Position numbers and translations under genes: made by a program. From positions 310,001-374,000 of the forward strand of contig JARFIW010001324.1 in the NCBI GenBank assembly GCA_036346225.1: a stretch of 64,000 bases of DNA, in the 5' to 3' direction. Below the pieces are notes generated by a model. The model made no database searches. It was given only the letters and a program-made list of their open reading frames with translations, and was not told where the DNA came from. Positions 52,621 to 60,069 of the stretch are shown here, in pieces (position 1 is the first letter of the stretch; every line of letters starts with the position of its first letter). The DNA is from Platerodrilus igneus (lineage: Eukaryota > Arthropoda > Insecta > Coleoptera > Lycidae).

Positions 52621-53159
52621 TATAGCGGGCTACTATTAATGCGTTTTACTAATTTAAAACAAGTAATAACAAAAGTCTTTATTACTCACTATTCACAAGT
52701 CTAATTAACAGTATATGCCTTATTTATAGATGGTTTCAGTCCAATTAACAACGAAGCACTATCAAACTAACGCTATTTAGAAGCATTAATATCTTCTTAA
52801 ACTAAATCCTTAACCATAGGTCTTCTTAACAACACTTACACTACTATAATTTATTTATTACACTTTTGTCTATTTATATACAGGCTGGCGGTTCAATACA
52901 CACTTTCACATTACACAAATTGATATTCACTAATAGGACTTTCAAAATTTAATAAACCAACTAACTATACACGAGATGATTTATATACGACATTTTGGTA
53001 TAGACTAACTCTGTACTTCATCAGCGGTCTTATATCTACCCTGAATTAAATAGGTGATTCATTCTCCGGTATATGCTAAAAGGTTCTAGGCTTCTGTAGT
53101 AGATACATTGCATACGGCGCTTGTGTGTTTGACGGGTTGCTTAATAGTAGCTCGTAACA
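52621..53159 (-). repeat. Solo LTR of the Gypsy family, minus orientation
   Basis: The reverse complement of this segment is similar over its whole length to the LTRs at 53504 and 59347. Shared blocks include TGTTACGAGCTACT, AATCATCTCGTGTA and TTGTTATTACTTG, with an additional diverged stretch near its U3 start. No internal region accompanies it, so it is a solo LTR left by LTR-LTR recombination. The 3' terminus (left end) has lost or changed its first bases. ATAT lies at 52620-52623 and directly after the right end (53160-53163), consistent with a 4-bp duplication. It is more diverged than the two LTRs of the neighbouring full element are from each other. Confidence 0.85.
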
Positions 53160-53499
53160 ATATGCACATGCAATGTGCTTCAGTAATTGCAACAATATAA
53201 TTATTATTATTGTACCAATCGGATTAGTGTATTTTGTACATCGTGCAAACAATAATGTCACAAAGTTAAATGCATAAGAATACTCGTATGTCTAAAACGC
53301 GGTGTAACAACAGAAAAATGATTTCGTGACAAAAATAAATAATTTCCAAAGGTAATGTAATATAATAATGTAATATAATATAATATAGTATACAACACGT
53401 TCTACAAATTTCTCTAGACACCTGTTTATATTTAATTGGATAGTGATTCAAATGATTGGAAAATAATAATCAATGAAATATTTAATACCTAATATAAAC
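53160..53499. other. Short stretch between the solo LTR and the Gypsy element
   Basis: AT-rich; no coding signal. Probably part of the original Harbinger element or its flank. Confidence 0.35.
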
Positions 53500-53503
53500 A
53501 TAT

Positions 53504-54040
53504 TGTTACGAGCTACTGCTAGGCAACCCATCAAACACACAGCTACATAACCGATGGTATATCCTACGGAACTCCCGAACGTTCTAGTAAACAGTAGAAT
53601 ATGAGTCATCTATTTAATTCAGAGTATATATAAAATCGGTGATTAATGTAGCAGTTAGTCTATATCAAAATGTCATATATAAATCATCTCGTGTACAGTT
53701 AGTTGATCATTACGTTTTAAAAGTTTTATAGCAAATATAAATTCGTGTTATGTGAACGTGTATATTGTACCGCCAGCTGTACACAAATAGACAAAAGTGT
53801 AATAAATAAATTATAGAAGTGTTACTGTTGTTAAGAAGACTTATGGTTAAGAATTTAGTTTAAGAAGATTTTAGTGCCTTGTAAATGGCATTAGTGTGAT
53901 AGTACTTCATTGTTAATTGGACTGCAACCATTTATGAATAAGACATATACTGTTAATTACACTTGTGTACAGTGAGCAATAAAGACTTTTGTTATTACTT
54001 GTTTTAAATTAGTGAAACTCGTTAATAGTAGCCTACTACA
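53504..54040 (+). repeat. Gypsy 5' LTR
   Basis: It begins TGTTACG and ends CTACTACA. It contains TATATATAAAATCGG (TATA-like, about 53626) and AATAAAGACT (poly(A) signal, about 53980). It pairs with 59347-59882. Confidence 0.96.
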
Positions 54041-54041
54041 C

Positions 54042-54058
54042 TGGTGTCAGGTTGTGTT
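54042..54058 (+). promoter_or_regulatory. Gypsy primer-binding site candidate
   Basis: TGGTGTCAGGTTGTG starts one base after the 5' LTR. TGG is the expected complement of a tRNA CCA end. The sequence resembles sites complementary to a tRNA-Leu 3' end; the tRNA identity is from memory and unverified. Confidence 0.6.
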
Positions 54059-54099
54059 GGGTGATTAATTAAGTCTAAAGACATTTGAGCAGTTTGTAT

Positions 54100-55330
54100 A
54101 TGCCAGTTACAAGAAGCCAAAATAAAATGGACGCAGAAACTTTCATGAATTTCCTTAAGGATTTTAAATCCAGTATGGAAGAGTGGTTTACTGAAAATGC
54201 TGAGAAAATGGAAAAAGGGTCTGCTAAACTAGAAGTGACACAATGCAAACGTAGTGAGGTCAGTTAAATTAGAATCAACCCTTAAAGAAAAGTTAAGTGA
54301 AAATGCTAAGAAAATGTAATAAAGGTTTAGTGAAAATGCTGTGAAAATAGAAAAGTTGAATGAAAAGACAGTCACGTTAGAACAAAGATCAAGGAAAAGC
54401 TCCATTGCATTGAAAGAAGATGTCACCGAACAGGTAAAAATGATTGAGTAAAAGTTGGACAGTAAATTGGTAAAAATGGAAGAAGATGTGATGGGGCTGC
54501 AAGAACACATGATTTCAATAACAGCCCGGCCACATGAATTAGCAAACCAAGTTGTAAATCAGAGTCAATACCGTCAAAATTTAAAGTGAAACCACCCACA
54601 TTCGATGGTAAAACACCTTGGCCCAGATATTTGAAACAATTTGAAGCTGCTGCAATAGCCAACGGTTGGTACAACAAGGCAAAGGCTACTTCCTTAATAC
54701 TAGCGCTACGGGGGGAAGCTCTTAATATCTTGCAAACCATTCCCGATCACCAACAGAATGATTACGGCTCTTAACATCGAAGCTTAAGATCACATATGGA
54801 GACGCTCACCTTCAACAGGTTTACCATGCATAAGTTAAGAACCGCTCACAAAAGACAAATGAAAGACTGCAAAAATTCGAAGCTGACGTTGCTAGATTAG
54901 TAGATTGGCATACCCAACGGCACCAGATAGCTTCCTCAAACAACTGGCTGTTCAAATATTGTGGATGGCGTTAAAGATGGCGAAATTCAGCAAGCGCTAC
55001 GATTAGCACGGCCAAAAATGTTAGATGACGCACTGGCTCATGCGCTTGAATTTGAAGCAGCTAAGCAGACATCACATAGAGTGAGTCACAAGTTCGGTCT
55101 GCCGTAAAGAACCTGGCCATTCGCAGAACAGCATAGAAGGAATAATCAACCGTGTGGCGGAAAGGCTTGAAAGACAACGACCGCGGAAAAGGGGTCTGCA
55201 ATGCTGGAACTACGGTGAAGTTGGTCATATACAGAGATGCTGTACTCAATCAAAGAAACAACCGGTTGAACAGCAGGGAAGACTAAAGCACAAGGTAGTG
55301 TCCCGGAGATTATCATCCGTGCTGCATCGT
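54100..55330 (+). pseudogene. Gypsy gag
   Basis: The likely start is the ATG at 54100 (MPVTRSQNK). A Lys/Glu-rich coiled-coil-like region to about 54520 is interrupted by stops. Then comes the capsid core with K-P-P-T-F-D-G-K and a Trp four residues on (54580-54620), typical of arthropod Gypsy gag. A nucleocapsid zinc knuckle lies at about 55200-55245: C-W-N-Y-G-x3-G-H-x4-C, where the second Cys is replaced by Tyr. At least four stops or frameshifts occur. Confidence 0.85.
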
Positions 55331-56017
55331 CAATGCGAAGTCTGGACAGCATTTATATCGATGGTAAAATTAATAGTAGGGTTGTCCGATTACTCGTAGA
55401 TACAGGAGCGACAAGGACTATTGTGAGACCAGATTTGGTTGATCGTGGAGAAGTGCTACCTGCATCGGTATGTCTTCGAACGGCAAGAGGTAAGAAAATT
55501 TCTACTCACGGAGAGACTGCCGTAACGTTGGGAATTGGAGACAAAGTAATTAAAATCATTGGGCGTTGGTAGCTGAAATTACAGAAGAAGTTTTCTTGGG
55601 AATGAATCTCATGAGAGAATATGGGTTTCATGTGAACATGAAAGAAAATGTGCTTCGGATAGATGATGATGAGATTCCAGTAACTAGTAACCAGACGATG
55701 CAAGTTTGAATGATTTGTGATTTGAAAATAGCCGAGAAGACAGAAATGATCGTGATAGGACGCCCGGATGGTACGTTCCGGGAAGGACAAATGTGCATGA
55801 TGGAAGCAACTGAAACGGGAATGGGTCAGAAGGGATTACTGATTGGAAGAACACTGGTGCGCTCTCGAAGTATGATACCAGTAAGAGTGCTAAACATTAA
55901 TCCGCATACAGTGACCTTGAACAAAGACATGTTTATGGGAAGTTGCATTCCAGTATGCCATTTAAACGTTGCGTGGACGACACTTAAGACAAAACAGCCA
56001 ACGTTTGCTCACAGAAA
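55331..56017 (+). pseudogene. Gypsy aspartic protease and linker to RT
   Basis: The active-site motif V-D-T-G-A-T is at about 55396-55413 within an open piece at 55333-55572. A second open piece (55710-56024) covers the protease-RT linker. A frameshift lies near 55570 and a stop near 55708. The enzyme normally matures Gag-Pol. Confidence 0.85.
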
Positions 56018-57440
56018 TTGCTAGATATGTTGATACCTTCGTGTCAAGGATTAAACGGCAAAGTAAAAGAACTGGTCGGACGATATCGAGGTGTGTTTGC
56101 ACTGGATAATGGTGAGAAAGGAAGGACGAACGTTGTGCAACACAAGATCAATACTGGAGATGCGCAACCGATACGACAACGTCCCAGGCGGCTTCCTTTG
56201 GCAAAACGTCACGAAGCCGAGCAAATTATCACAGATATGGAAAAACAGGGGGTGATTCAGCTCTAGGATAGTTCATGGGCATCCCCGTTAGTGCTTGTCA
56301 AGAAAATGGATGAATCGACAAGGTTTTGTGTAGACTACCAGCGGCTAAACAATTTTACAAAGAAAGACAGCTATCCTTTGCCCAGAATAGATGACACCTT
56401 GGATACTCTATCCGGATCTAAATGGTTTTCGACCTTGGACTTGATAAGCGGATACTGGCAGATAGGCTTGGAGCCAAACGATAAAGAGAAAACTGCGTTT
56501 ACAATTGGAATTGGATTATGGCAGCTCAAGGTCATGCCTTTTGGATTATACAATGCCCCTACTACTTTTGAACGTTTGATGAAGGCGATACTGCGCGGAC
56601 TGTCCTGGAAAACATGTCTGGTGTACCTAAACGACTCGATAGTGTTAGGGCGGTCTTTTAAAGAACGTCTTAAAAGTCTACAGGAGATATTCTAAAAATT
56701 ACACGGGGCACAACTTACCTTGAGCCCTAAAAAATGTCACTTATTTGGAAAAGAGGTGAAATACCTAGGACATGTCGTTTCGGGGACCGGAAAAAGAGCC
56801 TACCCTGACAAGATAAAAACGGCACAAGAGTGGCCTACACCAGCAGATATACAGCAACTACACAGTTTTCTAGGGTTGTGTACATATTACTGATGTTTTA
56901 TACTAGGGTTTGCGAACATTGCCAAACCGTTGACGTAATTAACCGAAGATGGACAAGAATATAATAGGAATAACAATCTACCACAGCGCATTTCAACAAC
57001 TGAAACAGCTACTGGTTACAGCACCAATTCTGAGTTATCCACGGATAGAGGGGAAATTTGTGTTGGATACCGATGCCAGTAACACAGCTATAGGAAGCGT
57101 TCTTTCTCAAGTGCAAAACGGACAAGAAAAGTTATTGGATATTTCAGCAAGGTCTTGTCGCGGCCAGAAGGGAACTATTGTGTGACAAGAAGTGAGCTGT
57201 TGGCCTTCGTCAAATTCGTAGAGCATTTTTATAAGTAGTCATACGGCCGTAAGTTCCTGTTAAGAACAGACCATGCTGCACTAAAATGGTTGCTGTAGTT
57301 TAGATACCCTGAAGGGCAATTTGCAAGGTGGATAGACCGGCTTAATTAATATGACTTTGACACAGAACATCGGAATGCAGACGCTCTGTCATGGAGACCT
57401 TGTCAGGGAGACTGCAAACATTGCTCCATAGAATGACGGT
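56018..57440 (+). pseudogene. Gypsy reverse transcriptase and RNase H
   Basis: RT fingers and palm are open in 56018-56266 and 56291-56695, in one frame separated by a stop. The motifs F-C-V-D-Y-x-x-L-N, Y-P-L-P-R-I-D and [12 protein letters not shown] are intact. The catalytic box reads Y-L-N-D (56624-56635) instead of Y-x-D-D, so one metal-binding Asp is lost. The RNase H start, V-L-D-T-D-A-S (about 57060-57082), is in the piece 56949-57185. Further downstream, H-x-A-L-K-W-L (about 57270) and the D-A-L-S end (57380) are readable in other frames. Inactive. Confidence 0.9.
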
Positions 57441-57639
57441 AACCGATGATACTTGGCAGCCCAAAGGAATACGAGAAGACCAGGAGAATGACGCTGAATT
57501 GGGACGTATTATTTAGTGGAAAAGTAGAGGACAACGACCAGCTTCGGAAAAAATGAGTATTTCAAGTAGGAGCCTGAAGGCATACTGGGCACAGTGAGAC
57601 TCCTTGGTGATTGAAAATAGAATCTTGAGACAACGCCTG

Positions 57640-58760
57640 AAATGAAAAGATGGCACAGTGTTGCAGCACTTGCACGATGGTATTTCCAGAGGGCACTTTG
57701 GCGTGAAAAAAACTCTTGAAGGAGTTAGAGAAAGATTCTATTGGGTGAACTGCAAGGAAGATGTGAAGGAGTGGTGCCGGAAATATGAGTTGTGTGCCTC
57801 TGGAAATGGCCCGGTCACAAAACGGAAAGCCCCAATGAGACAGTATAACGTGGGGAATCCTTTTGAGAGGGTGACCATTGATATAGATGGTCCGTTTCCT
57901 GAATCAGAGAAAGGAAATAAATACATCTTAGTTGCAATGGATTATTTCCTAACTAAGAAGCCGAGACGGTTGCAGATGTTCTGGTGAAAGAGTTGTTTTG
58001 TCGCTTTGAAGTTCCCTTGCAATTACATTCCGATCAAGGTCGGAATTTCGAATCATCGTTGTTTCAGAACGTTTGCAAACACCTTGGAATCAGGAAGACT
58101 AGAACCACACCACTTTATCCTCAATCGGATGGAATGGTTGAAAGAATGAACAGGACGTTAGGAAAGTACCTAGCCAAAGTTGTCTCTGAACATCAACGAG
58201 ACTGGGACCAATATTTACATTTGTTCCTACTGGCGTACCGATTTTCGGTACATGACAGCACAGAATACTCTCCCGCTTGCGTGATGTTAGGACGTGAGTT
58301 ACGGCTACCATGTGATCTTCAGTTTGGATTTAAACCTGGAGATAAGATCGCAGGTAAAGATTACGTTAGCAAGCTTCGTGAAAGATCAAATAGCATTCAC
58401 GAAAACGTCCGAAAGAATATCCAGGCAGCAGGCAATCGAATAAAATCACAATATGACACGAGAGCTCAAGAAGGTGGTTATCAACCTGAAGTGTTAGTGT
58501 GGTTGTATAATCCACAAAGAAAGCGTTGGTTGTTGCCAAAAATACAAAGACAATGGGTAGGCCCGTACAAAGTGTTAACAAAAATTAATGATGTAGTGTA
58601 CGGGATCAGAAAATCACCCCGTGGTAAACCGAAAGTGGTACACTTTGACCGTTCAACATCCTACGCTGACAACAACCAGGAAAGCTTGAATAATGAGAAT
58701 GGTGTTCGACAAGTTATTAATCATGAGCCAAATGTAGATTTTAAGAATTTTATAGCGGCG
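57640..58760 (+). pseudogene. Gypsy integrase
   Basis: The zinc-binding N-terminus (H-x-G-x-x-x-G-H-F-G at about 57670-57702, then W-C and C) is in 57658-57987. The first catalytic Asp follows in T-I-D-I-D-G-P-F. A frameshift near 57950 separates the second Asp (H-S-D-Q-G-R-N-F, about 58028) and the Glu (M-V-E-R-M-N-R, about 58135), both in the 284-codon piece 57984-58838. All three catalytic residues are thus present but in two frames. A C-terminal W-V-G-P-Y-K-V motif (about 58555-58575) is the GPY/F module. There is no chromodomain. Confidence 0.92.
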
Positions 58761-58789
58761 TATGGTGGTTCCGCTAAGGCGAGATTTGG

Positions 58790-59180
58790 CGTTGTTGTTG
58801 AAAAACAGCAAGATCTGTTTAAAGCACCTGAAGAGTAATTCCTTGCACATTGCGTAGCTCAAAATTTGGAAATAGCTGTTGTTTTCAAGAAAAAGTTTGG
58901 ATGTGTGGATAAATTAGTACAACAGCAGCCAACTGTAGGAAAAGCTTCGGTTCTTCAGGATAAAGATCGTTATGTTTACTATCTGGTCACAAAGAATTCT
59001 TCATGGCAGAGACCTATTTGTGGACATCTATGGGAAGCTTTGCTGAATCTTAAGGCTCAGATGATGGAAAATGGAGTAATAAGTTAGGCTGTGGATTGGA
59101 TCGCTTACATTGGAGAATAGTCCGAAATATGCTAGAAGTAATTTTTCAGGGAACCAACCTCCGGGTCCTTGTTTGTTGTT
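58790..59180 (+). pseudogene. TARG1/OARD1-like macrodomain at the C-terminus of Gypsy pol
   Basis: Macrodomains of the TARG1 type bind ADP-ribose and remove it from modified proteins. Here D-L-F-K-A-P (58812-58829), L-A-H-C-V-A, I-A-V-V-F-K-K-K-F-G (about 58869-58898), Y-V-Y-Y-L-V-T-K and G-C-G-L-D-R-L-H-W (59087-59113) follow one another as in human TARG1. The Lys of V-T-K (58992-58994) and the Asp of G-L-D-R (59099-59101) correspond to catalytic Lys84 and Asp125 of TARG1. The start is in frame with integrase. A TAA (58836-58838) interrupts it, the G-x-G loop before I-A-V is deleted, and a frameshift near 59080 precedes G-C-G-L-D. Not functional as read. The family call is from motif recall. 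Confidence 0.85.
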
Positions 59181-59332
59181 ATCAACCGGTTGCCTACCAG
59201 GACTAAGAAAAGGGTGTTGACTTTTATTTACAACGACGTGGTGGATGCAACAGAAGAGATGTCTGCCGATAGCGTCATCAGTCATCGAATTGGCGTCAAA
59301 ATGTATTTATAGTTACGAGACGTAACGGTTTT
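59181..59332 (+). other. Tail between macrodomain and polypurine tract
   Basis: A continuing open stretch reads R-L-P-T-R-T-K-K-R-V-L-T-F-I-Y and then acidic residues up to a stop near 59310. It is probably the end of the polyprotein in another frame. No domain recognised. Confidence 0.4.
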
Positions 59333-59346
59333 AAAGAGGGGGGCAG
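59333..59346 (+). promoter_or_regulatory. Gypsy polypurine tract
   Basis: AAAGAGGGGGGCAG lies immediately before the 3' LTR, as expected of the plus-strand primer. Confidence 0.9.
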
Positions 59347-59882
59347 TGTTACGGGCTACTGTTAGGAAATCCGTCAAACATGCAGCTGCATATCCGATGG
59401 TATATCCTACGGAACTCCCGAACGTTCTAGTAAACAGTAGAATATGAGTCATCAATTTAATTCAGGGTATATATAAGATCGGTGATTAATGTAGGAGTTA
59501 GTCTATAACAAAATGTCATATATAAATCATCTCGTGTACAGTTAGTTGATCATTAAGTTTTAAAAGTCTTATGGTAAATATAAATTCGTGTTATGTGAAC
59601 GTGCATATTGTACCGCCAGCTGTACATAAATAGACAAAAGTGTAATAAATAAATTATAGTAGTGTTAGTGTTGTTAAGAAGAGTTATGGTTAAGAATTTA
59701 GTTTAAGAAGAAATTAGTGCTTGTAAATAGCATTAGTGTGAAAGTACTTCATTGTTAATTGGACTGAAAACATCTATGAATAAGGTATATACTGCTAATT
59801 AGACTTGTGAGCAGTGAGTATTAAGGACTTTTGTTATTATTTGTTTTAAATTAGTGAAACGCGTTAATAGTAGCCCGCTACA
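59347..59882 (+). repeat. Gypsy 3' LTR
   Basis: It begins TGTTACG and ends GCTACA, followed by the ATAT target duplication. It is collinear with the 5' LTR apart from scattered substitutions and one or two single-base indels. Confidence 0.96.
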
Positions 59883-60069
59883 ATATTAACAAACTAAAAC
59901 TATAAATCTATTATACATTATTCATTGACTCTCACTGGGCTGCTGCAATTTATTTTGTTGCTTCCATCTAGGCTCGAAACAAGATCAGCTTTTGCTTACA
60001 GTAGGTTTTTTAAAAGACGGTGTTTGTTTAGCTAAACCAGCAAATTCGTTGTTAGCATTGATTGACGGT

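Follow-up and report, generated by a model that had tools for sequence, protein, structure and literature searches.

A TARG1-type macrodomain at the integrase end of an insect Ty3/Gypsy retrotransposon lineage

The stretch of DNA analysed here, called the window throughout, comprises 64,000 nucleotides of the lycid beetle Platerodrilus igneus (assembly GCA_036346225.1, contig JARFIW010001324.1, positions 310,001 to 374,000 of the forward strand). A Ty3/Gypsy retrotransposon of 6.4 kb spans window positions 53504-59882, its long terminal repeats (LTRs) being 91.8% identical over 537 bp (blastn), and carries behind its integrase a macrodomain of the TARG1/OARD1 type, a predicted remover of ADP-ribose tags, followed by a CCCH zinc finger. 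Paired TG...CA LTRs, a polypurine tract, a primer-binding site and a short target duplication place the element in Ty3/Gypsy. Its parts are the following.

53500..53503, no strand: ATAT, left half of a likely 4-bp target-site duplication (direct reading)
53504..54040, + strand: 5′ LTR, TGTTAC...CTACA (blastn against the 3′ LTR)
54042..54059, + strand: primer-binding-site-like stretch TGGTGTCAGG... (sequence)
54100..55300, + strand: decayed gag region with a CCHC-like knuckle, limits approximate (sequence; gag zf-CCHC in the sister copy L057)
55380..57400, + strand: decayed protease, reverse transcriptase and RNase H, limits approximate (open reading frames by eye; the Pfam order of L057 agrees)
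57646..57987, + strand: integrase zinc-binding domain (H2C2) and start of the core (Pfam PF17921, 2.5e-15)
57957..58838, + strand: integrase core and C-terminal domain, stop-closed, in frame into the macrodomain (Pfam rve 2.7e-10, Integrase_p58_C 6.1e-11)
~58791..59182, + strand: TARG1-type macrodomain, broken, Lys84 and Asp125 equivalents present (PDB phmmer; other copies)
59216..59278, + strand: CCCH zinc finger, broken, with the first Cys replaced and an internal stop (frame translation; intact in L005 and L057)
59333..59346, + strand: polypurine tract abutting the 3′ LTR, also coding in unbroken copies (sequence)
59347..59882, + strand: 3′ LTR (blastn against the 5′ LTR)
59883..59886, no strand: ATAT, right half of the likely target-site duplication (sequence)

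An earlier note on this DNA had recognised the macrodomain from motifs in TARG1 order that start in the integrase frame and lie ahead of the polypurine tract and 3′ LTR, hence inside the element, and this description holds. The integrase frame (57957-58838) continues into an open piece of 82 amino acids (aa; 58839-59087) that matches human TARG1 with an E value of 2.7e-14 (phmmer, PDB), well beyond chance, five distinct human TARG1/C6orf130 sequences of the PDB being matched at E ~3e-14; the segment sits between integrase and polypurine tract, within the paired LTRs. The proposed limits, 58790..59180, were close and have been adjusted slightly, as listed above. Equally, the equivalents of Lys84 (in YYLVTK) and Asp125 (in GCGLDRL) are both kept, the latter read together with the last strand of the domain in another frame (59081-59200). 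The window copy is a dead relic: stops interrupt its macrodomain in frame, the reading frame changes ahead of GCGLD, and four residues are missing at the phosphate loop. Pfam Macro, a check the note had suggested, finds the domain above its cut-off of 22 bits in an unbroken copy from the same genome (30.4 bits), though not in the broken 82-aa piece, which as query of the first protein search equally gave no match; scans of IMG/VR with the macro piece and the integrase returned only one chance match of 9 residues (L001). In a 213-aa query covering macrodomain and CCCH finger of the unbroken copy, residues 18-150 match human TARG1 14-146 at E 5.2e-37, and TARG1 is the closest macro fold. The catalytic Lys and Asp are both kept in 37 of 39 element rows; in the alignment of element rows (A2), which left out P0017 and P0027, K85 is invariant and D126 is found in at least 90%. 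The phosphate loop reads MSRG in 15 of 17 own-genome copies and SRG in 28 of 33 relatives, and host-type rows vary in this loop too; MSRG as a mark of the element only was dropped, as it also occurs in two host-type rows (P0099, P0103).

The genome searched amounts to 2.71 Gb in 1723 contigs, and its first-look candidates, 13,960 for the macrodomain and 50,869 for the integrase, are not copy counts. All 150 scored candidates, which are the best-scoring copies and hence no fair sample, match the macro-CCCH query with no less than 93% identity along 206 or more of its 213 residues; 138 are free of internal stops, and six lie in open frames of 1418-1462 aa. One copy, L057, with LTRs 99.43% identical over 527 bp, holds a gag of 368 aa and a pol of 1454 aa, overlapping in different frames. 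Scanned as pieces, it yields the Pfam order CCHC, protease, RVT_1, RNase H, H2C2, rve, p58_C, Macro (25.4 bits, cut-off 22) and CCCH, in which the protease, reverse transcriptase, RNase H, integrase order of a Ty3/Gypsy pol is found; no chromodomain appeared in these scans at E 0.01. At L057:5490-5587 the pol frame crosses the polypurine tract and runs about 90 bases into the 3′ LTR, such that the end of pol and the start of the LTR overlap. Integrase precedes the macrodomain in 16 of 17 stretches (L014 has no integrase match), and paired LTR pieces of 84-99% identity occur in 10 of the 17, the other seven being without a pair within the stretch examined. A CCCH finger, C-x7..8-C-x5-C-x3-H, stands downstream of the macrodomain in all 17 own-genome copies, and CPSF30, RBM22 and Roquin are among its relatives in the PDB. 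The earlier view of the macrodomain as the last part of pol needs a correction: the two are fused, as one open frame in some copies, but the true 3′ end of pol is the CCCH zinc finger, past the macrodomain.

Host macrodomain exons are present in the same genome. One locus, L078 (C549:4625238-4625552), is a TARG1-like exon with splice-like AG and GT at its borders, distinct from the element copies; it shares 68% identity with an OARD1-type protein of a beetle (residues 36-140), as compared with 50-53% for the 149 further rows of this comparison, which resemble copies of the element. L002, L003 and L004 are further host exons, the first two of MacroD type by eye and the third of another type.

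Copies chosen on a part other than the macrodomain provide an independent view of its retention. A 200-aa integrase query gave downstream stretches for 19 of match rows 2-23, and each of the 19 has macrodomain and CCCH behind its integrase; rows 2, 4 and 9, which were passed over, are among the 150 scored segment-bearing matches and therefore carry the segment too. In these integrase-chosen copies the ratio of nonsynonymous to synonymous polymorphism (pN/pS) stands at 0.209 (0.173-0.255) in the macrodomain and at 0.072 (0.019-0.142) in the CCCH finger. In 46 copies of mixed choice (53 loci less 7 duplicates, pairs with <80% of codons dropped) the corresponding substitution ratio (dN/dS) is 0.282 for the macrodomain, 0.295 for the integrase, 0.131 for CCCH and 0.50 for the tail behind CCCH. 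The pN/pS values are the fairer test because the 46-copy set was picked on macro similarity. The expectation that intact copies keep a single open frame under purifying selection is borne out in part, by some copies and by the excess of silent changes, but the segment is broken in the majority of integrase-chosen copies.

The lineage extends beyond Platerodrilus. A profile built from the 17 own copies matched 299 proteins (E <=0.01) among 7998 candidates, of which the best 120 were examined; among the first 23 matches, all that carry a species name are beetles. Integrase end, macrodomain and CCCH occur together in Exocentrus (P0004), Molorchus (P0005), Aromia (P0021) and Leptinotarsa (P0018), macrodomain and CCCH in Gonioctena (P0011) and Acanthoscelides (P0023), and a macrodomain with a finger one Cys short in Brassicogethes (P0008), while the firefly Pyrocoelia (P0012) and, read by eye, the leafhopper Macrosteles (P0028) have integrase end and macrodomain without the finger. 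The five names checked belong to Cerambycidae, Chrysomelidae, Nitidulidae and Lampyridae, and to Cicadellidae for Macrosteles. A search for long proteins returned 174 at E <=0.001 among 1138 candidates, the best 120 mostly from Aromia and Molorchus; all of these 120 contain the macrodomain, and four (P0122, P0219, P0234, P0235; 1372-1379 aa) show protease, RVT_1, RNase H, H2C2, rve and p58_C together. Of the same 120, 115 have the strict CCCH motif, which also occurs in 15 of 33 shorter relatives, several of them incomplete, and in none of 87 host-type rows. A number of beetle entries that databases label 'OARD1-like', 'Macro domain-containing' or 'C3H1-type domain-containing' are thereby explained as pieces of mobile elements.

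Among 61 macrodomains placed in a tree, a single branch (100/99) parts 24 element rows from 32 host-type rows, with five unlabelled; the split recurs with support 94 in a larger, quickly built tree (36 element versus 87 host-type rows). Labels in the quick tree, including those of P0019, P0026, P0027, P0050, P0083 and P0091, were set by motif or likeness; in the 61-row tree five of these six are unlabelled and P0050 is omitted, and P0008, P0012 and P0028 count as element by sequence reading. The split fits a single capture, one that is old and spread over insects. A group without CCCH (P0022, P0025, P0028, P0030, P0031) nests within CCCH-bearing rows with moderate support (93/71), and loss of the finger in this leafhopper-type group is therefore likelier than its late gain. 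The earlier note is supported overall in its interpretation, as neither outcome that it had named as a refutation was observed: the macrodomain match is significant, and other copies of the family keep the segment. It had overlooked both the CCCH finger and this old, insect-wide capture. A TARG1-like fold with 45% identity to the element domain is also seen in VP8 of Kadipiro virus (BFVD A0A8E0KJF2), which we take to be an insect-linked genome.

Host-derived domains in retroelements have been described in other settings. TARG1/OARD1/C6orf130, an ALC1-like hydrolase, resembles the element in the whole domain, the fold and the Lys/Asp pair; in contrast, the element domain is part of a retrotransposon polyprotein, mostly has the SRG loop, is followed by CCCH and forms its own clade. 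Integrases of chromoviruses carry at their C-terminus a chromodomain that reads histone methylation; they share with the element an extra chromatin-related domain in this position, whereas here it is a macrodomain with catalytic residues. Fish Epsilon-like endogenous retroviruses, in a one-sentence description, carry macro-domain open reading frames (Basta et al., 2009; PMC4977317) and are likewise retroelements with a captured macro domain, but on that description are of vertebrates with the domain in an extra frame, unlike the integrase-fused TARG1 type with CCCH of an insect Ty3/Gypsy. According to excerpts of PMC9289625, an orchid Ty3/Gypsy captured a host eraser enzyme, the N6-methyladenosine demethylase AlkB, active in vitro; this 25-kb plant element holds it as a separate frame acting on RNA, in contrast to a predicted ADP-ribose eraser inside pol. 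LTR elements of bdelloids have equally acquired enzyme frames, GDSL esterase or DEDDy exonuclease, as excerpts of PMC5408684 describe them, yet as a separate ORF3 and with other enzymes than in the insect element. As macro-ORF fish retroviruses and the AlkB Gypsy are known, retroelement capture of such domains is therefore already precedented. New is the TARG1-type macrodomain fused to a Ty3/Gypsy integrase, mostly with a CCCH finger, in insects. By title and start of abstract, none of the papers listed in the literature searches concerns a macrodomain in Ty3/Gypsy (the note, too, knew of no characterised Gypsy family with this fusion), and ADP-ribose terms are absent from PMC6338049 (accessory domains) and PMC8672886 (zebrafish endogenous retroviruses).

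According to excerpts of the literature, TARG1 binds PARP1 and frees ADP-ribose from acidic side chains and nucleic-acid ends (PMC7050489), and with its relatives also reverses thymidine ADP-ribosylation by the pair Lys84 and Asp125 (PMC9411070), residue 125 being written as Glu in the former and Asp in the latter source. The element likely uses its TARG1 domain to undo a host damage signal during insertion. Viruses are well known to counter host ADP-ribosylation with macrodomains, the RNA viruses being the best-studied case. Through its fusion to integrase, the element domain would travel with the integration complex and could there strip ADP-ribose marks off cDNA ends, PARP1 or integrase. 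The full proposal, to which we tentatively assign a probability of about 0.35, is that the integrase-TARG1-CCCH protein of a high-copy insect Ty3/Gypsy clade is a de-ADP-ribosylase clearing DNA ends, PARP1 or the integration complex, that ADP-ribosylation would form an anti-retrotransposon barrier in insects, and that this counter-defence became fixed a single time and has been retained across beetle families and beyond. A Ty3/Gypsy lineage with TARG1 on its integrase, kept over beetle families, would mean that ADP-ribosylation bears on retrotransposon integration, a question for which we know of no natural handle; the element domains also offer a ready set of divergent natural variants for comparison with host TARG1.

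Several points weigh against this proposal. De-ADP-ribosylation is predicted from residues and fold, the diphosphate loop departs from the human MGAG, reading MSRG instead, P0017 and P0027 have neither catalytic Lys nor Asp, and insects have few PARPs. The strict CCCH motif occurs in somewhat less than half of the shorter relatives, several of them incomplete, the finger is absent from the leafhopper-type group, and its Pfam matches stay below curated cut-offs in the unbroken copy (PF18345 8.4e-5, PF00642 9.3e-4) and in L057 (23.3 bits versus 29). Fifteen of the 19 integrase-chosen copies have a frame-changing indel in macro/CCCH, and of the other four two have a stop, one a 30-nt in-frame loss and only one is unbroken, which weighs against a firm claim of use. 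In the reverse test, 14 of 29 macro-chosen copies show a frame-changing indel in the integrase. Deletions make up 76 of the 77 events; 68 of them remove a single base, and 53 of those 68 fall in one-base runs of at least 3. This pattern points to assembly error or slippage, and real decay, with broken copies spreading, may be the alternative source. Many copies (L059-L077) lack single bases at shared positions within one-base runs and show no insertions, which likewise resembles an assembly artefact or slippage.

A macrodomain that reads rather than erases, tethering integration to ADP-ribosylated chromatin or damage sites, would suit the position behind integrase (16/17 stretches, L057, 19/19 integrase-chosen) and the altered phosphate loop, and ALC1-like macrodomains include readers (excerpts of PMC7050489). 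We consider it unlikely, as a pure reader does not require the catalytic residues, which 37 of 39 element rows hold despite 41-54% identity to the own copy (A2 element rows). Similarly doubtful is a cytoplasmic role in which CCCH binds element RNA and the macrodomain removes ADP-ribose that PARPs of antiviral type have attached to RNA ends or capsid proteins. CCCH fingers are mostly RNA-binding, CPSF30, RBM22 and Roquin are among the relatives of this one, and it is under the tightest constraint of all parts by pN/pS and dN/dS; the TARG1-like fold of Kadipiro virus VP8, and the proposal in a review passage that RNA ADP-ribosylation may mark transposon-derived RNA, point the same way. The macrodomain is, however, joined to integrase and not to Gag, and the leafhopper-type group retains it without CCCH. 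That a host gene piece was captured once and is now a useless passenger would agree with the broken segment in the window copy and in 18 of 19 integrase-chosen copies, but is largely contradicted by its single origin and presence in several beetle families and a leafhopper, and by pN/pS near 0.2 in copies not selected on the domain. A flanking host gene or assembly chimera is contradicted by the location of the segment, enclosed by paired LTRs with integrase on one side and the polypurine tract on the other, and by recurrence in 150/150 scored matches, 19/19 integrase-chosen copies and other species; a one-off insertion and a chance order of motifs were rejected likewise.

As to the affiliation of the window element, the primer-site-like stretch TGGTGTCAG 3′ of its 5′ LTR presumably fits tRNA-Leu, and together with the 4-bp duplication we take it as a hint at the Mdg3 clade. 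A separate inverted LTR of the same family, 84% identical, lies at window 52623-53164, ~340 bp upstream of the element. At the other end of the window, an open reading frame on the minus strand (292-915) contains DUF1759 (E 2.9e-21) and is presumably the gag of a BEL/Pao element.
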